From Paenibacillus faecis (GTDB lineage: Bacteria > Bacillota > Bacilli > Paenibacillales > Paenibacillaceae): a DNA stretch of 64,000 nt. The notes under the pieces were generated by a model. It saw only the letters and a program-made list of their open reading frames with translations. It made no database searches and had not been told where the DNA came from. A program made the translations under genes and the position numbers. Shown here in pieces: positions 47,299 to 58,403 of this stretch (position 1 is the first letter of the stretch; every line of letters starts with the position of its first letter). The stretch is taken from assembly GCF_008084145.1 (NCBI RefSeq), contig NZ_VSDO01000001.1, forward strand, positions 634,840-698,839, given 5' to 3'.

Positions 47299-48069
47299 TT
47301 ATATTGTCAATTCTTCTATTTCATTCAACATATACGTTGCGTAATTCAATAACGTTCGCTCATCAAATCTTAATTTTTCCACTTCATTGTTATTGTAAGT
47401 TGCAAGGCATTGAGCGATTACATTTTTATACTCGGACGGTACGAAGTCCAGCGCCCATTCTCCTGCCTCTTTTTTTGAAGAAATGACCGAATCTCTTACA
47501 TAGTATAGAACTCTAGAAAGATTTAAAACGTAATAAACAGGGTTGTGAATAATCCCCTCCAGCGCATCCTCAATATCAGATTTAATGGATTGGATATAAT
47601 AGCTCTTATCTATAGGCTTTATTACGTCTTTTATTTGTTGACCAAACAGGACGATTCCACGGTGATAAGTGATGACGAAGTGAGCGGCCAAATCCGGATC
47701 TTCCCATCCCCCGCAAAAATAACTCTCATCCGTTCTGTACTTCTCTCTATGAAATGAGGAATAATGAAATTCGAAAGGGGTTGGATAGACAAAGTTAGCA
47801 GCGTATGTTTCCAAGACTACGCTTAATTCAAATCCCTTTTTTAAATTCATCTCATCTTCGATCCTGATTAAATTTCTTGCAATTTCTTTGTAGATACCGA
47901 TGGGTTGTTTTTCTCTTGTAATTACCAATACATCTATATCGCTTTGAGCAGGATTAAAGCATTCCATGGCCATAGATCCGTGCAAATAAATTCCTATAAG
48001 GGTGTCCGATAATTTTTCTTTCAAAAGATAAGTCAAATGGTCCAAAACAACGGTTTGGTTCATCTCCAT
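47299..48069 (-). CDS. AadA/ANT(9)-like nucleotidyltransferase
   Basis: A protein of about 256 residues with an N-terminal nucleotidyltransferase domain (IGIYLHGSMAMECFNPAQSD, then IDVLVI: the GS...DxD metal-binding motif) and a C-terminal DUF4111-type helical domain (EGIIHNPVYYVLNLSRVLYY). This is the plan of aminoglycoside/spectinomycin adenylyltransferases, but many chromosomal relatives have no proven resistance role. The start is ATG 48069 or 48063, after AAGGGGGCAGAG. Confidence 0.75.
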   Translation of the reverse strand: MEMNQTVVLDHLTYLLKEKLSDTLIGIYLHGSMAMECFNPAQSDIDVLVITREKQPIGIYKEIARNLIRIEDEMNLKKGFELSVVLETYAANFVYPTPFEFHYSSFHREKYRTDESYFCGGWEDPDLAAHFVITYHRGIVLFGQQIKDVIKPIDKSYYIQSIKSDIEDALEGIIHNPVYYVLNLSRVLYYVRDSVISSKKEAGEWALDFVPSEYKNVIAQCLATYNNNEVEKLRFDERTLLNYATYMLNEIEELTI

Positions 48070-48140
48070 CTCTGCCCCCTTCATTTGGGATTTTCCTGCT
48101 TTTATTTCTATAACCTGCCGCCCTTGCGGCTATTGGGCTA

Positions 48141-49538
48141 TCACTTCTTTACAGATTGATCAAGCAGCGTTTGCCCTTCGGACTTTATTGCTGCTACTGC
48201 TTCATCAAGGTTTTTTTGTTCTTTTTCCACAAGTTCTAATTCTCGACTTAAGATCGCAGCAAACTCGTTGAAAAATTGATCGGGCAGCTTGTTCCAATCA
48301 TCACTACGACTTGGAAATCTTGATTTCAACGAATAGAACGGCTCTAAACTAGTTCCTTCGTAGTCCTTCATAAATCCGGATCGACTTAATATCAACTGTT
48401 GACCTAACAACAATTCATTGGACTCGGAGCCAGCTCGAGCGTAATCTTCACCGCACACATACTTAATAAATTCCCATGCGGCATCTTGATGGACTGATGT
48501 TATGTTAATGGCGAATATATCCCCTGGAGTTACATAAGTTGATGTTGGATCAAGGGGATCGACGGGTCCAGCGGCAATACCCAGTTCAAAGGGAACATAA
48601 TCGTTCAAATCATGCTTGAAGTGATCCATAAGTACTAGCGACGTTACAGATCCAATATGCATAGCAGAACGCCCCATGAGAAATGGTTGGCTATTATAAA
48701 ACTCCTCTTTCGTTCCACTTGTGAATAATTCATCCATAGAATTAAAAATAGCGCCCGATTGTTCTGCCTGAATTGCGGTCTGAATCACTTTTTTCCACGC
48801 ATCTGTGTCTATGGTCACCTGCATCTTATCTGTATTCACGATCGACAATCCTTCAGCCCGACTCATCTTATCAATCAGTGTAACTAGATCCATGGGGGCT
48901 TCATACACATCTCCACCGCTATATCCATATATTCGTGTCTGTTTATCCCCTTCAGTAGGAAAACGACGGGCAAGATCGATCATATCGTACCAACTCATTC
49001 CATCAGATGGGAACGCTATGCCATTTTTCTTGAACAGATCTTTATTGTAAAATATCGCCTTGCTCGAAAACGACGGAGTAAGCCCATACAATTGACCACC
49101 GCCTATTTCTCTAAGTTGATCAACGAGACCGGGAACGAACCCATCCAGATTATACTTATCTCTAGTACTAAGCGAATCAAGTTCAGTCAGGTTTCCATCG
49201 TGAATTTGACGTTTAAACTGAGGAGCATCCAGAATCAAAATATCCGGCTGTTCTTTTCGGATAAACTCCGCATACACCTCTTCCTTCGTTTTATCACCCA
49301 TATCTGTGTAAATGTTCGCATCGCTGATGACTTCAAATTGGATATGATTATGAAGCGTGGTGAACCCATCCCCATATTGCTTGTAGAATAATTCCAAATC
49401 CGGATAGATGACCTTAAGCGTAGTCGTCTCTTGATTTTCCTTGGATTCAAGCGGACCCATAGACACCCTTGTACAACCTACTACTAACAGGCAACTAACA
49501 ACAAACATCGTAACTACTTGCAACCATGATCTGTTCAT
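48141..49538 (-). CDS. family 1 extracellular solute-binding lipoprotein
   Basis: A 465-residue lipoprotein: hydrophobic signal, lipobox LVVGC (Cys about 22), then a SBP_bac_1 fold (FIRKEQPDILILDAPQFKRQ, YGLTPSFSSKAIFYNKDLF, MSWYDMIDLARRFP, and a C-terminal Glu/Lys coiled tail). It is a paralogue of the next gene upstream and shares the same block order. No sugar-ABC permease or ATPase lies nearby. A second ATG after AGGAG is taken as start. Confidence 0.78.
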   Translation of the reverse strand: MNRSWLQVVTMFVVSCLLVVGCTRVSMGPLESKENQETTTLKVIYPDLELFYKQYGDGFTTLHNHIQFEVISDANIYTDMGDKTKEEVYAEFIRKEQPDILILDAPQFKRQIHDGNLTELDSLSTRDKYNLDGFVPGLVDQLREIGGGQLYGLTPSFSSKAIFYNKDLFKKNGIAFPSDGMSWYDMIDLARRFPTEGDKQTRIYGYSGGDVYEAPMDLVTLIDKMSRAEGLSIVNTDKMQVTIDTDAWKKVIQTAIQAEQSGAIFNSMDELFTSGTKEEFYNSQPFLMGRSAMHIGSVTSLVLMDHFKHDLNDYVPFELGIAAGPVDPLDPTSTYVTPGDIFAINITSVHQDAAWEFIKYVCGEDYARAGSESNELLLGQQLILSRSGFMKDYEGTSLEPFYSLKSRFPSRSDDWNKLPDQFFNEFAAILSRELELVEKEQKNLDEAVAAIKSEGQTLLDQSVKK

Positions 49539-49573
49539 CATCGTCTCCTATCTCCGCTCAACATATAGCATAG

Positions 49574-51049
49574 TCATTTAAAAGGTACTGTCTTAAAATC
49601 ATCCCAATTGACGGTCATCTTTTCCTTTGCCATGCTTTTGTCCGGCTCTTTCCCTCCATTTTTTTCATTAACCTTCCTGGCAAGGTTCGCTTCATCAAGG
49701 TCAACTTGTGCATCTCGCTGAATCGTCTGTAGCGCTTCATCAAGGGATTTTTGAGACCTCTCTACTTGGGTCCATTCCCGATACGTAATCTCTTCATATT
49801 TTTCCTTGAATTCATCCGTAATCATACTACTATCAGGATCATCATAGTAATTACTTAGCGGCACGGAGGTTAAGTGATAAAATCCATCCAGGTTAATCCC
49901 ATAATAATCGCTTGTTTGACCCATGCGTGAAGGAATGCCATGATCCGGTCTTCTCGCCAATTTGCTTGCAACGTCATCACCCTGCATAAACTTCAACAAT
50001 TCCCATGCGGCATCTACATTGGCGGAATTGGCCCGAATTGCATAAACATAGTCATTCCCCAAATTCAGATCTCTGGTTATTTCTCGATTAGACGGATCAG
50101 CTGGACCGACCACCATACCCACCCTAAATGGCTTAACCCCTGATTCCCCACTTTTTACATAGTCAAGTACACTATAGGCCCAGCTAGGTTCATCAGCGAT
50201 CAACATCGCTTGCCGCCCTTTAGCAAAAAGTTGCTGTCCGTCGAAATTCTCATCCGTGTTAAATCCTCCCTTGTGCAGGGCATTTGTAGATAGTGCTTTT
50301 TTAGCTTGTTCGTACGCTTGCTTCCAGCCTTTTGTATCCATTGTGATTTTCATTGTATCAAGGTTAACTGCCTTTAATCCCATAGATAAACCTATCCGCG
50401 TACCTAACTCTCTTAGAGGGCTTTCTTTGTCTAACCCGAAACTCGTGAATCCCCCGTATATCCTGGATTGCTCATCTCCATCGGTAGGAAATCGTCCTGC
50501 TAAGTCGATCAGTTCTTGCCAAGTCATTCCGTCGTGTGGCGGCTCAATTCCATATTGATCAAACAGGTCCATATTGTAAAAGATGACTTGTCGCTGGAAT
50601 GTGGGCGCAAACCCATACAACTTCCCGCCGCCTTGTTCCCTAAGAAAGTTGATGATCGAAGGATAAATCGTGTCGATATTGTAGTGATCCCGCGCCACTA
50701 GCGGTTCAAGATCTAACAGGAACCCTGCAGCTGATAACCGCTTATAATCATCAATACTTAGGTAAAGAACATCCAGTTGTTCTTGTTCGATAGACTGCTC
50801 AAGAGCTTGCACATAGTTTGAAGCCGTCTTCTCAAGTTCTATCCTTTTGGGTCTAACAAGCTGAATCTTAATCGAACCGTTCTGGGCATGGAACATGTCA
50901 CCGTATTGATTATTAAAGTATCTGTTTTCTTTCTCGTAAGTCATTACCTTCAACTTTGTAGTATTAGCCGCCGGCGAGCTTGTACAACCTGCCGATCCAA
51001 CTATAAGTAAACCTATAAGCAGCATTGATGTTAACTTAAACTTGCGCAA
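49574..51049 (-). CDS. family 1 extracellular solute-binding lipoprotein (paralogue)
   Basis: A 491-residue lipoprotein with lipobox GSAGC (Cys about 22). It shares blocks with its downstream neighbour: LREQGGGKLYGFAPTFQRQV, GMTWQELIDLAGRFPTDGDE, and a charged C-terminal tail. The start is a TTG after a run of eight G. The two genes are separated by 35 bases and are probably cotranscribed. A 19-base palindrome lies upstream. Without permeases, they may serve a transporter encoded elsewhere or act in sensing. Confidence 0.78.
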   Translation of the reverse strand: MRKFKLTSMLLIGLLIVGSAGCTSSPAANTTKLKVMTYEKENRYFNNQYGDMFHAQNGSIKIQLVRPKRIELEKTASNYVQALEQSIEQEQLDVLYLSIDDYKRLSAAGFLLDLEPLVARDHYNIDTIYPSIINFLREQGGGKLYGFAPTFQRQVIFYNMDLFDQYGIEPPHDGMTWQELIDLAGRFPTDGDEQSRIYGGFTSFGLDKESPLRELGTRIGLSMGLKAVNLDTMKITMDTKGWKQAYEQAKKALSTNALHKGGFNTDENFDGQQLFAKGRQAMLIADEPSWAYSVLDYVKSGESGVKPFRVGMVVGPADPSNREITRDLNLGNDYVYAIRANSANVDAAWELLKFMQGDDVASKLARRPDHGIPSRMGQTSDYYGINLDGFYHLTSVPLSNYYDDPDSSMITDEFKEKYEEITYREWTQVERSQKSLDEALQTIQRDAQVDLDEANLARKVNEKNGGKEPDKSMAKEKMTVNWDDFKTVPFK

Positions 51050-51356: not shown

Positions 51357-51758
51357 TTAAGGCTCGATGCCCCATTGCAGTTCTCCGCCTACGTATCCGG
51401 TGATTTTCAGCGTTTTGGCGTAAGCCGTGGCCACAGCGTCAAAGGAATAGTCGTCGCTCTGGCTGTAATTGCTCCAATCCGCTTTGGAAATGCGGATCTG
51501 CAAATCGACGCTCTGTCCCGGTGACAGCGTTCCGGCCGTTTCCGTAAATCCGATCTCCGCGTAATGATCGGCACCGGCCAACGCCGCAGGCAAGCGTACG
51601 AAGCGGCCGGTCACGTTGGCGCTGCCGACCTGGCTCCAGTCGCAGAAGAAATTCTGCGGTTGCTCCCCGTCAACCGTAAAGTAATACCGCAATGTGACAT
51701 CCTTAAGCGGCAGAGCTTCCGTTATTGCGATATTTAATGGAAAAACAGCGTCAGGAAA
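51357..51758 (-). pseudogene. 5'-truncated CBM3 (cellulose-binding) protein fragment
   Basis: The frame is open from a TAG at 51759-51761 to the stop at 51357. It encodes nearly a whole family 3 carbohydrate-binding module: ALPLKDVTLRYYFTVDG, FCDWSQVGSANVTGRFV, HYAEIGFTETAGTLSPGQS and DWSNYSQSDDYSFD, ending in WGIEP. Such modules end secreted cellulases or expansins. The catalytic part, the signal peptide and a real start are missing. The break is near 51720; beyond it the similarity stops. Confidence 0.75.
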
Positions 51759-52030: not shown

Positions 52031-52059
52031 TTCCCAAATATGCACCTTCATGGTATGAT
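52031..52059 (+). promoter_or_regulatory. promoter of the kinase/PIN/ASCH operon
   Basis: TTCCCA (52031-52036), 17 bases, then TATGAT (52054-52059) with an extended TGG before the -10. The GTG start follows about 30 bases after the predicted start point. Confidence 0.45.
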
Positions 52060-52094
52060 CAGGTAAAAAGTCGTATTTTGTGGAAGGGACTAAT

Positions 52095-52631
52095 GTGGAC
52101 AATATAATTTTTATTGGTGGCATTCACGGAGTTGGAAAGACAACATTATGTAACAAACTATCACATCAACTTCAATTGGAGAGTCATTCAGCGAGCAAAA
52201 TTATATCAAATATGAAAAAACAGAACCTTCCCTCAAACAAACTAATCCCAAATATTAATATTAATCAAGCCTTCCTCATCGAAGGCCTCAATCAATTAGA
52301 AACAGAGAAACATTGGATGATACTCGATGGACACTTCTGCTTACTTGATGGTAAAAAAAATATATCTAAAATCTCCGAAGCTGTTTTTAAGGTAATAAAA
52401 CCAGCAGCCTTAATTGTGATAACAGATTCAGTTAAAAATATTGCTTCAAGACTTAAAAATCGTGACGATGAAGAATATGATCTTAAATTTCTTAAACAAT
52501 TTCAGAATGAAGAAACAGCTTACGCAAGACATATAGCCAAAAAGTTTAGCATACCTATATATATTTTTAATAGTAGTGACGAATCCTCATCATCGCTAAT
52601 TCAATTTATCACTAATTTGGGAGTGATATAG
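52095..52631 (+). CDS. P-loop kinase-like ATPase
   Basis: A 178-residue single P-loop NTPase. Walker A is GGIHGVGKTTLCN near the N-terminus, a WMILDGHFCLLDG strand may carry Walker B-type Asp, and SRLKNRDDEEYD resembles the lid of nucleotide or polynucleotide kinases (AAA_33-like). The substrate is unknown. GTG 52095 follows AAGGGA; another GTG at 52080 has no site. It is the first gene of a tight operon, three bases before the PIN-GNAT gene. Confidence 0.7.
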   Translation: MDNIIFIGGIHGVGKTTLCNKLSHQLQLESHSASKIISNMKKQNLPSNKLIPNININQAFLIEGLNQLETEKHWMILDGHFCLLDGKKNISKISEAVFKVIKPAALIVITDSVKNIASRLKNRDDEEYDLKFLKQFQNEETAYARHIAKKFSIPIYIFNSSDESSSSLIQFITNLGVI

Positions 52632-52634
52632 TAA

Positions 52635-54134
52635 ATGAGAGTTCTTCTAGATACCAACATTGTTATCCATCGAGAAACTAGCAATGTCCAAAAAAATGAT
52701 ATAGGTATACTTTTTAGATGGCTTGATAGACTCAAATATACAAAATGTATCCACCCAGTAACAGTTGAGGAAATAAAAAAGTACAAAAACCCCCAAACTG
52801 TTAATTCTATGATAGTAAAACTTACTAGCTACCATAGCCTAAAAACAGAGGCGCCTTGGACTGAAGCCATCAATATCGTTTCAAAACAGTATGATAAAAA
52901 TGATAATGATATTAATGACACAAAATTGCTAAATGAGCTAGCAACTGAGCGAGTAGACCTTCTGATAACAGAAGACCGTAAACTTGCTTTTAAAGCTTCA
53001 AAATTAGATTTGTCCGATAAAGTATTTACAATAGATTCTTTTTTAGAGAAAGTTACATATGAGCATCCTGAACTAGTTAGTTATAAAGTTTTATCTGTAA
53101 AAAAAGAATATATAGGTAATATTGATATTAATGATAACTTTTTTGATAGTTTGAAAGAAGATTATCCTGGGTTCACTAAATGGTTTAACAAAAAGGCGGA
53201 CGAAATTGCATATATTTGTAAAATCGACAACAATATTGCTGCATTCTTATACTTGAAAATTGAAGATGAAAATGAAGATTACTCAAGTATATCTCCACCA
53301 TTTCCAAAGAAAAGGCGACTAAAAATCGGGACTTTTAAGGTAACATTAAATGGTTATAAACTTGGAGAGCGGTTTATAAAAATAATTATTGACAATGCTC
53401 TTATTTTTAAGGTTGATGAGATTTATGTTACTATTTTCGATAAGCGGATTGAGCAAATTAGACTTATAAACCTTCTCAGTGATTATGGGTTTTCAAAACA
53501 TGGCTTGAAAGATGAAAGCGAGTTGGTTTTTACTCGAAATTTTCAGAAAGCCTTTGATATTTACAACCCTAAATTTACGTTTCCGTATATTGACTCAAAC
53601 AGGCAGGTATTCTTGAGCCCGATCTATCCTGAATATCATACCAATCTTTTTCCTGACTCAATTCTACGTACTGAATCGCCCGCTGACTTTATTGAAAATG
53701 AGCCTTTTAGAAATGCCATAAGTAAGGCATTTATATCTCGTTCAATGGAAAGAAACTTAAAGACAGGGGATATTATAGTATTCTATAGAACTGGTGGTTA
53801 CCACAAGAGCGTAGTAACCACGATAGGAATTGTTGAAAGCGTGGTTAAAAATATAACTGATTCTGAACACTTTATAGCCTTATGTAAAAAAAGAAGTGTT
53901 TTTACTGACCAAGAACTTTTGGAATGGTGGAACGGGGGAAAAACTAGGCCATTTATAGTTAATTTCCTCTATTCGTACTCCTTTCCTAAACGAATTAATA
54001 TGAAAAGATTAATAGAATTGAACGTTTTGAAAAGTGTTCATTCCGCCCCCCGAGGGTTCATGAGAATAACATATCAGAATTTTAAAGACATCATAAAGGA
54101 GGCACAAATTGATGAACGTATTATTGTCAATTAA
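52635..54134 (+). CDS. PIN-GNAT-PUA/EVE-like multidomain protein
   Basis: A 499-residue protein. Residues 1-135 form a PIN nuclease domain with acidic residues in MRVLLDTNIVIH, TVEEIKKYK, DINDTKLL and LLITEDRKLAFKA. Residues about 160-300 look like a GNAT fold (IAAFLYLKIEDEN, GTFKVTLNGYKLGERFIKII, VTIFDKRIEQIRLINLLSDY). Residues about 375-470 begin KTGDIIVFYRTGGYHKSVV, like an EVE/PUA-type RNA- or modified-base-binding domain. It suggests a nuclease coupled to an acetyltransferase and a nucleic-acid reader. It overlaps the ASCH gene by 23 bases. AT-rich, unlike the nif region. Confidence 0.65.
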   Translation: MRVLLDTNIVIHRETSNVQKNDIGILFRWLDRLKYTKCIHPVTVEEIKKYKNPQTVNSMIVKLTSYHSLKTEAPWTEAINIVSKQYDKNDNDINDTKLLNELATERVDLLITEDRKLAFKASKLDLSDKVFTIDSFLEKVTYEHPELVSYKVLSVKKEYIGNIDINDNFFDSLKEDYPGFTKWFNKKADEIAYICKIDNNIAAFLYLKIEDENEDYSSISPPFPKKRRLKIGTFKVTLNGYKLGERFIKIIIDNALIFKVDEIYVTIFDKRIEQIRLINLLSDYGFSKHGLKDESELVFTRNFQKAFDIYNPKFTFPYIDSNRQVFLSPIYPEYHTNLFPDSILRTESPADFIENEPFRNAISKAFISRSMERNLKTGDIIVFYRTGGYHKSVVTTIGIVESVVKNITDSEHFIALCKKRSVFTDQELLEWWNGGKTRPFIVNFLYSYSFPKRINMKRLIELNVLKSVHSAPRGFMRITYQNFKDIIKEAQIDERIIVN

Positions 54135-54483
54135 ACCAGAGTTTGTAGAAATGATATTTTCGGGTGAAAAAAAATACGAATATCGAAAAACCATATTTAA
54201 ACGTAAAGATATTTCCAGGGTTATTATTTATGCTACTGCCCCTGTAAGTCGTGTTGTTGGAGAATTCGAAATTGATACTATTCTTTTTGAGGATGTTAAC
54301 ACCCTTTGGGAAGAGACAAAAACAGATGCCGGAATTGATGAAAAGTTCTTCTTTGATTATTTTACTGAGAAAGAAAAAGGGTACGCTATTAAAATTAAAA
54401 AGTATAAGCAATACTTGAAATCTAGAAAATTAAACGATGTTTATCATTCAACTCCTCCTCAATCTTTTGCTTATATTGATTGA
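54112..54483 (+). CDS. ASCH-domain protein (COG4933 type)
   Basis: A 123-residue single ASCH/PUA-like domain: VLLSIKPEFVEMIFSGEKKY, EYRKTIFKR, VIIYATAPVSRVVGEFEIDT and PPQSFAYID, the full pattern of the family. ASCH domains bind RNA or act on modified nucleosides. The ATG at 54112 follows GGAGG at normal distance, inside the end of the PIN gene. It probably works with that protein. Confidence 0.8.
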   Translation: MNVLLSIKPEFVEMIFSGEKKYEYRKTIFKRKDISRVIIYATAPVSRVVGEFEIDTILFEDVNTLWEETKTDAGIDEKFFFDYFTEKEKGYAIKIKKYKQYLKSRKLNDVYHSTPPQSFAYID

Positions 54484-54642
54484 TTATTTTACATTCATTA
54501 TTTGATACTCGCTAAAAATTAATCATGGAAATCATGCAGCAGTAGTATCTTCAGTTTGAATTGACATTTTGAGTTTCGTATTCAGAGTAGAATATAACAA
54601 CTTTTCAAAGTCAAAGATATTGTCTAAGGAGCATTGATTTTC

Positions 54643-55652
54643 ATGAGAAGTTTTGCGGTTTGGTACTCTTCTTCAAAAAACAACAACATAAGGGAAAATA
54701 AAGAAGCAACAGTTCATATAAATCTATGGTCACAAAAAAAAATGGCAGTAAGGAATACTGTTTTGATTTCGGATTCTTGATTGAAAGTATTGAGGGAATT
54801 GAAGATATTTTCTTATATGTCCCCTTTCCAATTAAGAAAGAGCAAATTAAAGATCTTGGGACAATTATTTCTAACAACCAACTAGTGAATGCGATTTTTA
54901 ACGAAAATTTCACCACTACAGATGGGGAACCCAAAAGACTAACTGTTAACGGAACAAAGGACAAGCCCCCTTTCACCATTTATTCCCTTGAGATAGAAAG
55001 CCAAATTGAGATTAGCAATTGTATTAGAAGTGGCAACACTGACAAGCCAGGTACCATATTGAAAATACGAATCGGAAATATCTCTCCAGGAAGTAAAGCT
55101 AGATATTATTTCAGAATACGAATTCAAGCACAAAAAAAAGATATCGCCCTAATCAATGATCAAATAAAGGGCATTAGCATTTTTAGTAACCAGTTCACCA
55201 ATACAGAAATAATTGACTTTCGATTAAATGATATTAGGAGCTGTGGAGAGGAACTAAGAGAACAGTTCAATAAAGGACTCAAATTTAATCTTTTAGCTGT
55301 TCATTACTTAATATTAAGAAGTGCAGATGACCTGATAATCCATTATGGAGAGAGTATAAATAGTAGAATGCTAGAGAATGATTTATGGAAAGATTATATA
55401 GATAGCGTGCCAACAAACAATATTATTGCTTATCATATAAAGAAAAAAGCCAATAAAACTAATAGTGATAACAGCGGAATGCCTAAATACGAATACTTAG
55501 AAGGCTTTTCAGACTTAACACGTTTTCAGTATCAAAAAAGTAGCTGGTTAATACTTCTTCTCTACACAATTTTTATTATTATCTTCGGAGCAGCAGGAGG
55601 AATTTTTGGAGATTGGATAAGTGAAATAGTTCAAAGTCTGTTTAGAAAGTAG
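54643..55652 (+). CDS. C-terminally membrane-anchored protein with A9 frameshift
   Basis: The long frame 54726-55652 has no ribosome site at its first ATG. A better start is ATG 54643 with AAGGAG upstream; its frame (MRSFAVWYSSSKNNNIREN, then KEATVHINLWSQKK) joins the long frame if one A is added to the A9 tract at 54732-54740. The joined product has 336 residues: a beta-rich domain (FDFGFLIESIEGIEDIFLYV; KPPFTIYSLEIESQIEIS; RYYFRIRIQAQKK), a helical part, and a C-terminal helix (LILLLYTIFIIIFGAAGGIF). Function unknown. Slippage at the tract or decay are both possible. Confidence 0.6.
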
Positions 55653-55661
55653 GACCCTGCG

Positions 55662-56189
55662 GTGAATTACACAAACATATTTCATGGACTTTCAACGATC
55701 CAGCCGGAAATTTTACGGAAATTCTTGTTTGATGAAATTGGGGAGCGATCCAAAGACAAATTGTATAATCATTTGAAGGAATTAGAGCACTGCTATCCCA
55801 AATTTGACCATTGGTTTTACAATGTTGTAATTCCAGAAGTTGAGCTAAGAGATGGAAAACGTGAAATTATAATAGCTCTAACACAAATGTTAGATACAAA
55901 AAAAACTTATTTAACCGGAATAGCTATTTTAAAAAAAACAAAAGATGAAAAAAAAATATGCACCTTTAGAATACATGAAAATTATAGAAACATGGGTATT
56001 GGAACTGCTTTGTTTGAGCAATGTTTTCTATATTTGGAGACAAGAAAGCCATTGATAACAGTATCAAGCGATAGGTTAGAAATGTTTAGAAATCATATTG
56101 ATCATTTTGATTTCAGAATCTATCAAAGCTTGGACAACTTTTATAAGCAAGGATCTACAGAATATGTATATAATGGTTATTTGTTATAA
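55662..56189 (+). CDS. GNAT-like acetyltransferase
   Basis: A 175-residue protein starting at GTG 55662, nine bases after the membrane protein. The acetyl-CoA loop NYRNMGIGTALFEQ follows strand KKICTFRIHE, and a strand LITVSSDRLEMFR comes after. The first 60 residues (MNYTNIFHGLSTIQPEILRK) are not part of the usual core. The target is unknown. The stop lies about 15 bases from the broken end of an IS256-type element, so the original downstream neighbour may be lost. Confidence 0.6.
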   Translation: MNYTNIFHGLSTIQPEILRKFLFDEIGERSKDKLYNHLKELEHCYPKFDHWFYNVVIPEVELRDGKREIIIALTQMLDTKKTYLTGIAILKKTKDEKKICTFRIHENYRNMGIGTALFEQCFLYLETRKPLITVSSDRLEMFRNHIDHFDFRIYQSLDNFYKQGSTEYVYNGYLL

Positions 56190-56195
56190 TTCCTT

Positions 56196-57100
56196 CTAAA
56201 TCCTTGTACGACACATAGCGGGTCTAGTTGTGGATCTGATGGATGACGCATTTCTGAATCTCGGTATTCGGGTAGCAGGCGGAAATTGACTGCGAAAAGC
56301 CTGTGAGGTTATCCACGCACGTGATAAGGATGTCTTGGACCCCGCGATTTTGCAGTTCGTTAAGACGCTAAGCCAGAACTTCGCGGATTTGTTCTCGCCG
56401 ATCCACATGCCAAGCACATCCTTGTTGCCGTCTAGATCGATACTGATGGCCATGTAGGCCGCCTTGTTCACGATGGCCATCCTGCTTGACCTTGAAGTGG
56501 ATGGCATCAAGAAAAACGACCGCGTAAACGCCTTGCAACGGCCGGTTCTGCCATTCCTTGATGAGCGGCAAGAGCTTGTTTGTGACGTTGGAAATGAGCG
56601 TTGGCGAGACCTCGATATCGTACAGATTCTGCAGGTGATCCTGAATCTCCCGGGTGCTTCCCCCATTGGCGTAGAGAGCCACTATCTTATCCTCAATGCC
56701 CGTCACGTTCCATTGATACTTCTTCACCACAAGTGGCTCGAACTCGCTGAGCCCGTCACGCGGCACCTGAATCTCCTCCTCAACTACTCCCCTCACAACC
56801 GTTTTCTTGCTTTGCCGTTACTGCTATTGAACATGACCTTGGCTTTCGCCTCATGCTTCTCGTAGCCCAGATGAGTGTCCGTCTCGGCCTCCAGCATCTC
56901 CTGAAACGTCTTCGCAAAGAAGTTTTTCAGCGCATTCAGAGCGTCCTGCGCCGTTACCAACTTGTTTTCCTTGATGAATGCCCACAGTTGCTCCTTCGTC
57001 CACAAACCCATGTGTGCTCCCCAACCTTTAATTTGCTTCTTTAGTAATTCGGTTTTGGAGTTTACACAAAAGATTTACAGACTCGGATCGAGGGAAGTCT
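56196..57100 (-). mobile_element. decayed, 3'-truncated IS256-family element
   Basis: Contains the 5' two-thirds of an IS256-type transposase on the minus strand and, near 57060-57100, a TTTACACAAAAGATTTACAGA end typical of the family's terminal repeat. The opposite end is missing; similarity stops at about 56205, next to the GNAT gene. Confidence 0.7.
56205..57011 (-). pseudogene. IS256-family transposase, frameshifted and truncated
   Basis: Three frames join to a mutator-type transposase: MGLWTKEQLWAFIKENKL to NSSNGKARK, then KTVVRGVVEEEIQVPRDG to VVFLDAIHFKVKQDG, then IVNKAAYMAISIDLDGNKD to KFWLSVL, and a further shift to QSISACYPNTEIQKC. At least three frameshifts (near 56805, 56475 and 56360), an in-frame stop (N*TRYVSYKD) and loss of the last third make it inactive. 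Confidence 0.75.
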
Positions 57101-57212: not shown

Positions 57213-58403
57213 TTAATCCCCACTCCATCCTTTTCCAGTAATTGCCCATTTTAATGTCTGAAAGAAATGCCTTATATATTCTTTATATGACCATTTCTTA
57301 TAATTCTGAAGTAAGTGAATCCTGTAGTCTAAACTAGGGTGTGTATGCCACCTGCTATATCTTTCCGGAAGCTTCCTATACCAAGGTATATTTGTCTCCA
57401 TATTTTCATTCTGCATTCTTTTAAGCAGCTTTATCAACCCTAATCTGATTTCAGGAATTAACTCACATGCTTTTCTATCTGCACGCATTTCTCGAATCTG
57501 ATACCAATATCCATGTTTGGCGTACAGCAAGTAAATTAACATACCCAAAAAAACAATCATCATAACAGGGATTGCTAAAACCAAAACAAGTGCTACATAG
57601 ACTAAGTACGCACTAATAATGCCTACGATATATACATAAGTGAGCATCCCAGCGATAAACAAAAAAATTGTACTCGTAGAAAACAAAGTACTTTTAAAAT
57701 CATAATCCTTATACTTAATATGTATCAATTCATGAGCAATTAAAGCTTTCAACTCTTCATCTGAGAATTCTTCACAAGCTTCAGTCGTTAAAACAACAGC
57801 GTTCCTTCCTTTACGGAACCATGGTTTTAAATATGCATAACCTGGCGATCGACTACTAATTGTTATAAAAAGCTCTATACCGTGCATCCCCAACTGTTCT
57901 TGGGTATCCATAAAAATTTTTACTATTCGTTTGCTTGGAGGGAATAGTAGAGTTTCCGACATCAACTTTTCAATCAATAGTTTGCGCTTAAAAAGTGCGA
58001 TTAAAATACGGTTAATGAATAAAATCAACTGCTTCTTAAATCTCGAAATAAATTGCTCTTTAATTGGCCTTTGATTTATATTGGCGTGTTTGAAGGGCGG
58101 GGCGCTTTCATTGAGATCGAGTTGTTCTTCGAACTTATCTAGAACTTCAGACCATATTTTTGTCCACCTAATTCCTGTCATTACTAAAGCAGCTATCATG
58201 ATTAAATGATAAAAAATCGATACGTTCGATTGAAAAAACATTACAACGATTATTGCCGGGACCAGATGCGATAATAGAATAAGTAAAAATGAATAAAAAT
58301 GCTGGATGTTCCTTTTTTGAATAACTAGTTTTGTTAATGAAAGTAATCGAGCATAAGCAAATATGTTGCCAAACATAAAACTAATAGAATAAATGACTCC
58401 CAT
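57213..58403 (-). CDS. M48-type membrane metallopeptidase
   Basis: A 396-residue protein with N-terminal helices (about 1-25, 35-57, 62-78), a cytoplasmic stretch, and a peptidase domain with zinc site HELIH (224-228) and a downstream Glu in EMRADRKACE. Two further helices (about 245-295) follow the zinc motif. This fits the M48/HtpX-like or BlaR1-like class. The substrate is unknown. It lies between two transposon relics and may be part of the same acquired region. Confidence 0.75.
   Translation of the reverse strand: MGVIYSISFMFGNIFAYARLLSLTKLVIQKRNIQHFYSFLLILLSHLVPAIIVVMFFQSNVSIFYHLIMIAALVMTGIRWTKIWSEVLDKFEEQLDLNESAPPFKHANINQRPIKEQFISRFKKQLILFINRILIALFKRKLLIEKLMSETLLFPPSKRIVKIFMDTQEQLGMHGIELFITISSRSPGYAYLKPWFRKGRNAVVLTTEACEEFSDEELKALIAHELIHIKYKDYDFKSTLFSTSTIFLFIAGMLTYVYIVGIISAYLVYVALVLVLAIPVMMIVFLGMLIYLLYAKHGYWYQIREMRADRKACELIPEIRLGLIKLLKRMQNENMETNIPWYRKLPERYSRWHTHPSLDYRIHLLQNYKKWSYKEYIRHFFQTLKWAITGKGWSGD

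Follow-up and report, generated by a model that had tools for sequence, protein, structure and literature searches.

A candidate toxin-antitoxin type or abortive-defence module of the PIN-GNAT-EVE/ASCH kind in Paenibacillus faecis

The portion of Bell et al. 2020 (PMC7641849) on which we rely describes EVE-GNAT fusion proteins, often with an N-terminal PIN domain, which occur with an ASCH protein and often with an AAA_17 ATPase. A toxin-antitoxin or defence role was predicted for these systems. According to the same portion, PIN-less forms occur in prophages, PIN forms lie near restriction and other defence genes, and no module of these systems had been experimentally characterised at that time. 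We analysed a locus of this composition in a 64,000-nucleotide stretch of the Paenibacillus faecis genome (contig NZ_VSDO01000001.1, positions 634,840 to 698,839), called the window below. The locus encodes a P-loop kinase, a 499-residue toxin candidate, an ASCH protein as candidate antitoxin and two further proteins, P4 and P5 (Table 1). We judge the chances to be about even that it is a horizontally moving module of toxin-antitoxin type or for abortive defence, most likely stopping translation when the cell is stressed or infected by a phage.

Gene content, predicted folds, conserved active-site residues, the gene overlap, the linkage and the presence on phages and plasmids are direct observations. 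The core is a member of an already described kind, which is apparently uncharacterised in the literature found; new are P4 and P5, a recurrent 23-base overlap, a shared likeness to ZmASCH and a single branch that divides the forms with and without PIN. Literature searches, with preprints and most subscription papers outside their coverage, returned Bell et al. alone on GNAT-EVE, no paper on PDC-M11 (the PADLOC system matched by the toxin candidate and the ASCH protein) and, among the papers listed, nothing relevant on VakA (a PADLOC model matched by the kinase). PDC stands for 'phage defence candidate' in the part of PMC11514479 consulted. An earlier interpretation made from the letters alone, the sequence-only reading, had proposed an RNA-directed conflict system, and the composition given by Bell et al. 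as predicted toxin-antitoxin or defence agrees with that proposal. As a whole the interpretation was partly supported; it had missed P4, P5 and the existing published prediction.

Composition of the locus

The kinase gene, the 499-codon toxin gene and the ASCH gene lie on the same strand, with a gap of 3 bases between the first two and an overlap of 23 bases between the last two. The coordinates thus bear out the tight three-gene arrangement that had been claimed. The PADLOC match to PDC-M11A spans residues 1-498 of the large protein. The family libraries gave PIN_3 and EVE as weak matches, and the profile of the protein found a sole match among PDB sequences, N-alpha-acetyltransferase 50 (E 0.044). 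As a single-sequence query the protein had no match, so that folds were required for the domain assignment. Comparison of the predicted model supports a PIN, a GNAT and a PUA-like domain, in that order, in one chain; the sequence-only reading had set the presence of these folds as its test beforehand, and they were found. The fold matches of the predicted PIN domain are VapC toxins. VapC cleaves RNA. The top fold match of the modelled C-terminal domain is ZmASCH; no EVE chain was among the 50 matches listed, and EVE is still compatible with the fold. The acidic residues of the PIN domain are kept in 85 of 85 sequences (one of them in 82 of 85), and the GNAT motif residues are fixed or nearly fixed.

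A VapBC system consists of a stand-alone PIN protein and a VapB-type DNA-binding antitoxin, and GNAT toxins of the TacT/AtaT class have a partner with an RHH or HTH DNA-binding domain. Here the PIN domain is instead fused to GNAT and a reader, and Pfam found no RHH, HTH or VapB-type DNA-binding domain in the ASCH protein. Besides ASCH, which was above the cut-off and confirmed the separate ASCH protein noticed earlier, Pfam gave one sub-threshold GTPase match. The best solved relative of this protein by sequence is ZmASCH (5gus; phmmer 1.4e-14). Tyr47, Gln127 and Ser128 of ZmASCH align with Y40, Q117 and S118, and Y40 and S118 are nearly invariant among 13 aligned ASCH proteins. Lys53 of ZmASCH aligns with S46, with R47 adjacent, and the lysine position is therefore not kept in register. 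A resemblance of the ASCH protein to an extra domain in NCBIfam NF008917 (ribosomal protein L22 fusion; 6.6e-13, far below the cut-off) was also seen and weighs in favour of the module proposed here.

These relationships bear on another reading of the ASCH protein, namely a ZmASCH-like single-stranded RNA nuclease that would be a second effector or processing enzyme and form, with the GNAT-PIN protein, a phage-triggered two-enzyme RNA-processing unit. In the sections of PMC5615036 used here, ZmASCH is found to bind nucleic acids and to degrade single-stranded RNA, with no activity seen on DNA; Tyr47, Lys53 and Ser128 of its nucleic-acid cleft would characterise such a nuclease. The clear relationship and the counterparts of Tyr47, Gln127 and Ser128 are in line with such a role, whereas the ribonucleolytic activity is called weak in the same sections and Lys53 has no counterpart in register. 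In addition, the ASCH gene is kept where the toxin is broken (see below), which better fits an antitoxin, and a phage record labels the ASCH protein an antitoxin. We consider a nuclease role quite improbable.

The kinase is of the Pfam AAA_17/AAA_18 type (AAA_17 1.3e-13, above the cut-off) and matches the PADLOC model VakA at 7.1e-11. Its best NCBIfam match is the adenylate kinase PRK04040 (8.4e-7, below the cut-off). When its profile was compared with the PDB, a designed nanoparticle protein was the top match and the adenylate kinase 1ki9 matched at 4e-9; the named solved relatives are mostly adenylate kinases. G9, G12, G14, K15, D78, H80 and R123 are unchanged in 13 of 13 aligned sequences. 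The sequence-only reading was correct in calling this ATPase a P-loop kinase, but its label 'polynucleotide-kinase-like' was dropped, since Pfam, NCBIfam and the named PDB relatives point to AAA_17 and mostly to adenylate kinases.

Linkage, gene overlap and phage forms

Relatives of the toxin candidate were collected in three sets. The genome set consists of the best 80 of 281 relatives from a scan of genome contigs (55-78% identity), and the viral set of the best 80 of 135 IMG/VR relatives, ranked by likeness to both PIN-bearing and PIN-less sequences. The Paenibacillaceae set, the window's family, has 19 loci and shares a few genomes with the genome set. The 80 genome relatives belong to many phyla, with 38 in Bacteroidota, 8 in archaea and 5 without a phylum name. 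A same-strand ASCH gene follows within 1.5 kb in 78/78 genome loci (two more were left out because less than 400 bases of sequence followed the toxin), 80/80 viral loci and 19/19 Paenibacillaceae loci. The toxin has an AAA_17 kinase gene no further than 2 kb away in 21/80, 8/80 and 16/19 loci, respectively.

The ASCH gene starts exactly 23 bases before the toxin gene ends in 47/77 genome, 61/76 viral and 13/14 Paenibacillaceae loci; the ASCH start could be placed in all but 12 of 179 loci, and only those are counted. Many of the viral loci are near-copies. In nine loci inspected, from Paenibacillaceae, an archaeal metagenome-assembled genome (MAG) and phages, the same bases encode the C-terminus of the toxin and the N-terminus of ASCH. 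Eleven of the 77 genome loci, all Bacteroidota by title, have an overlap of 4 bases instead. A Shine-Dalgarno (SD)-like motif precedes the ASCH start in 32/64 genome loci (background 5.9%), 5/13 Paenibacillaceae loci (7.5%) and 8/76 viral loci (6.1%). Since the motif is hardly enriched in the viral loci, a ribosome site of its own for ASCH is not universal.

Relatives were found on 33 plasmid records and 16 phage records, and also on viral contigs and in Escherichia coli prophages. The linkage to mobile regions, expected earlier in place of housekeeping contexts, is thus borne out in part, but some relatives share ordinary chromosomal neighbours. Three Flavobacterium loci (L201, L206, L213) have one ordinary chromosomal neighbourhood in common, and four Chloroflexota loci (L158, L174, L176, L187) share one neighbouring gene, which speaks for some stable chromosomal residence. 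Among other neighbours, 6 of the 80 genome loci (L149, L160, L177, L166, L142, L207) have a member of one gene family no more than 3 kb from the toxin, and the two members tested match the HNH_5 endonuclease. The Hymenobacter locus L160 (6651-9204) also carries, upstream of the system, a second, different ASCH gene next to a 695-aa gene. HTH proteins are encoded upstream in some alpha-proteobacterial loci. A link to tRNA genes was rejected as a general feature, with tRNA within 2.5 kb in just 5/80 genome, 1/80 viral and 0/19 Paenibacillaceae loci. In prophage Lj965 (L055, 4280-4855), four tRNA genes lie directly upstream of the GNAT-EVE gene.

The portion of Bell et al. (PMC7641849) used here reports Iyer et al. 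2013 as proposing acetylation of DNA bases and reading of modified DNA, contains ASCH-HsdS and HTH-ASCH fusions, and gives the EVE protein THYN1 as a reader of modified cytosines in DNA. The system might therefore be directed at DNA or nucleotides, with the GNAT domain acetylating a DNA base, the readers recognising modified DNA and the kinase handling nucleotides. The resemblance of the kinase to adenylate kinases would suit this, as would HsdM of type I restriction, found near 6 of the 80 genome loci as a raw count. However, HsdM was near 0/80 viral and 0/19 Paenibacillaceae loci. The predicted PIN fold matches RNA-cutting VapC toxins. The closest solved relative of the ASCH protein is a nuclease without activity seen on DNA in the sections cited, though it binds nucleic acids generally. 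We give a DNA-directed system only a small probability.

PIN is absent in 79 of the 80 best IMG/VR relatives. In the tree, one branch separates PIN-bearing from PIN-less proteins with a support of 100/100 and a single change in 100% of 200 bootstrap trees. This tree has 99 rows, with 8 long or oddly composed rows left out; with all 107 rows the support is 98. The PIN-less pair, always chromosomal and never below 99% identity, occurs in 274 of 5,426 complete E. coli genomes (~5%). In all four lambdoid phages or prophages viewed, the pair is located after a CI-type repressor gene and before the gam-bet region; we take the position after the repressor to be the place of rexAB in lambda. The record of Escherichia phage PhiR47_2 (PV340567.1) gives the two overlapping genes of its PIN-less pair the names GevT (toxin) and GevA (antitoxin). 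In Methanothermobacter phage psiM100 (L023, 2554-5346), nearly the whole PIN-GNAT-EVE gene is on the inserted fragment annotated as IFa, and the record compares ORF5, the gene next to it, with an ORF of phage psiM2.

The absence of PIN from nearly all of these viral relatives, the near-identical E. coli pairs and the 33 plasmid records could also indicate a counter-defence or selfish addiction module, in which PIN-less phage forms protect a prophage or plasmid and the PIN forms are chromosomal strays. We regard this as unlikely: the position after CI, presumably that of rexAB, suits superinfection exclusion equally well, and the recurrence of P4, P5 and the kinase points beyond simple addiction.

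The pattern of gene loss was observed in 295 genomes of the family. The toxin profile matched in 26 of them: 20 intact copies, 3 partial (G146, G294, G059) and 3 weak partial (G136, G219, G233), the last being set aside. The subfamily ASCH gene was present in 25 genomes at 159 bits or more, and in 40 at any E up to 0.001. The intact toxin stands beside ASCH in 20 genomes, so that an intact toxin without ASCH was found in 0 of 20 among the 295; G059 is cut by a contig end. Conversely, four genomes keep ASCH where the toxin is fragmented (G146), survives as a C-terminal remnant (G294, G045) or is absent (G041). The remnant of G294 has a stop, and the contig of G045 ends 346 bases further upstream. 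Four more relatives (L146, L108, L117, L121) combine a broken or short toxin frame with a full-length ASCH gene, for which sequencing error is possible. This direction of loss fits a toxin and its antitoxin and is suggestive only.

Several points weigh against a toxin-antitoxin or defence module. The 4:0 excess of broken toxins carries little weight, since the length of the toxin gene is about 3-4 times that of the ASCH gene, and in one of the E. coli records viewed neither gene is intact (toxin gene and neighbours frameshifted, ASCH gene shortened, in a frameshift-rich assembly). Five genome loci have a gene between toxin and ASCH, indicating that tight coupling is not universal, and some plasmid loci carry the ASCH gene on the opposite strand. 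HsdM is near just the few genome loci mentioned above. When compared by hhalign, the sequence profile of the toxin's C-terminal domain hardly matches the ASCH profile (E 0.026, probability 1.9), so that it is from the fold that a competition of two readers is argued below. Finally, the GevT/GevA label is an annotation for which the papers listed in the literature searches include none on experiments, and the literature found holds no measured activity for any member.

Proposed mechanism, P4 and P5

For the toxin-antitoxin or abortive-defence module, we infer toxicity, substrate, neutralisation, a phage trigger and the roles of the kinase, P4 and P5 as follows. The large protein would be the toxin. 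Its C-terminal PUA-like reader may pick an RNA, probably a tRNA, bearing a particular base modification; the GNAT domain would acetylate the selected RNA or its aminoacyl group, and the VapC-like PIN domain would cut RNA. Bell et al. (PMC7641849), in the portion used here, states that GNAT toxins acetylate charged tRNA. The ASCH protein, whose start codon lies within the toxin gene, would be the antitoxin. Since its fold matches the toxin's own reader, it probably acts by taking the place of that reader on its RNA or docking surface; such a competing-reader antitoxin is proposed because ZmASCH is the best solved relative both of the toxin's reader, by fold, and of the ASCH protein, by sequence. 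The adenylate-kinase-like protein and P4, with P5, may be accessory and tune the triggering or place the complex at the membrane.

P4 belongs to an unnamed family: it matched no PADLOC model, and none of the libraries searched names it. The predicted model of a relative combines a beta-rich domain with a single helix at the C-terminus (300-328). The P4 gene of the window loses its frame at an A run close to its start (54643-54740), a region that the relatives read in one frame; the N-terminal part that matches them is read in another frame from 54643. This break may represent a pseudogene, an assembly error or slippage. Intact copies are present in loci L027, L028 and L036. P4 adjoins the system wherever P4 queries detected it (7/7 plasmid records, 5/5 Paenibacillaceae genomes). 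P5 and the GNAT domain of the toxin are related (hhalign E 3.2e-6, probability 88), and P5 also gives a weak match to PDC-M11A (8.8e-5). All loci with a good match to the P5 profile (E 1e-21 or better) had P4 next to P5; these loci had been picked via the toxin or P4 only. In G041 (locus L223, 7607-10173), P4, P5, ASCH and the kinase occur together with no detectable EVE-domain protein, as if the stand-alone GNAT had replaced the toxin.

A more specific proposal, which we advance tentatively and hold to be rather doubtful, is a five-gene, membrane-linked version of the (PIN)-GNAT-EVE system. A tail-anchored, beta-saddle-like P4 would be a dedicated component that repeatedly joined or left the operon; it would bring the toxin-antitoxin complex to the membrane or detect a membrane event during infection. 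P5 would be an alternative acetyltransferase, which can even replace the EVE toxin (G041), and ASCH would mimic the toxin's reader of modified RNA. If true, this would define a toxin-antitoxin class controlled by reader competition.

The region of the system is AT-rich and adjoins a broken transposase, as the sequence-only reading had said: GC is 31.9% in 52080-56189 and 53.8% in window bases 1-45000. The Mutator-family transposase is the right edge of this stretch and lies outside the system. Promoter and terminator matches were not above those in shuffled sequences. The positions of these features and of neighbouring genes are listed in Table 1.

Table 1. Features of the locus and its surroundings, in window coordinates
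Feature	Position	Strand	Basis or remark
AAA_17 / adenylate-kinase-like P-loop kinase	52095..52631	+	GTG start; further in-frame GTG at 52080
PIN-GNAT-EVE/ASCH-like toxin candidate, 499 aa	52635..54134	+	PADLOC PDC-M11A 3.5e-220; fold model and comparison
Predicted PIN domain, residues 1-134	52635..53036	+	Fold comparison
Predicted GNAT domain, residues 145-306	53067..53552	+	Fold comparison
Predicted C-terminal PUA-like reader domain, about residues 320-493	53592..54113	+	Fold comparison
ASCH protein, candidate antitoxin (GevA-like), 123 aa	54112..54483	+	Pfam ASCH 6.1e-6, above cut-off; PADLOC PDC-M11B 6e-51
23-base overlap, coding toxin C-terminus and ASCH N-terminus	54112..54134	+	Recurrent spacing
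P4, C-terminally membrane-anchored beta-rich protein, unnamed family	54726..55652	+	Relatives' alignment; model of a relative
P5, second stand-alone GNAT	55662..56189	+	Acetyltransf_7 2.2e-4, below cut-off
Mutator-family transposase, 3 pieces	56196..57011	-	Transposase_mut 1e-9, 3.6e-27, 1.2e-4
Nucleotidyltransferase with AadA_C domain (aminoglycoside adenylyltransferase family)	47299..48084	-	
Two adjoining extracellular solute-binding-protein-like genes	48141..51049	-	First by Pfam, second by eye
CBM_3 cellulose-binding domain protein fragment	51357..51692	-	Left edge of AT-rich stretch
M48/BlaR1-like membrane peptidase	57213..58403	-	

Comparison with known systems

The (PIN)-GNAT-EVE/ASCH system spans Bacteria, Archaea, phages and plasmids. 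To its description the present analysis adds a recurrent membrane partner, a recurrent overlap, a clean PIN split and structural ground to suspect that toxin and antitoxin compete for one modified RNA.

The window has the same domain order, the ASCH partner and the AAA_17 ATPase of the (PIN)-GNAT-EVE/ASCH/AAA_17 operons of Bell et al. In the portion of that paper used here, a membrane protein, a second GNAT and a conserved gene overlap are unnamed, and the word 'transmembrane' is missing from its main text, a check with the figures outside it, whereas the window has P4 and P5. Compared with PADLOC PDC-M11, both of whose models are matched by the pair in the window, the locus adds P4, which has no PADLOC model, and the kinase, which matches the separate model VakA. 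GevT of PhiR47_2 is a GNAT-EVE protein with 39.8% identity over 69% of the window protein and likewise has an ASCH antitoxin; unlike the window, this phage pair is without a PIN domain and has no kinase or P4 annotated beside it. The window ASCH protein shares with ZmASCH (ZMO0922; 5gus, 5guq, 5y6b) the fold and the positions of Tyr47, Gln127 and Ser128, but not that of Lys53. With respect to VapC PIN toxins and TacT/AtaT GNAT toxins, the window protein is predicted to join both folds and a PUA-like reader in one chain, and its partner is an ASCH protein, not a VapB- or RHH-type protein.

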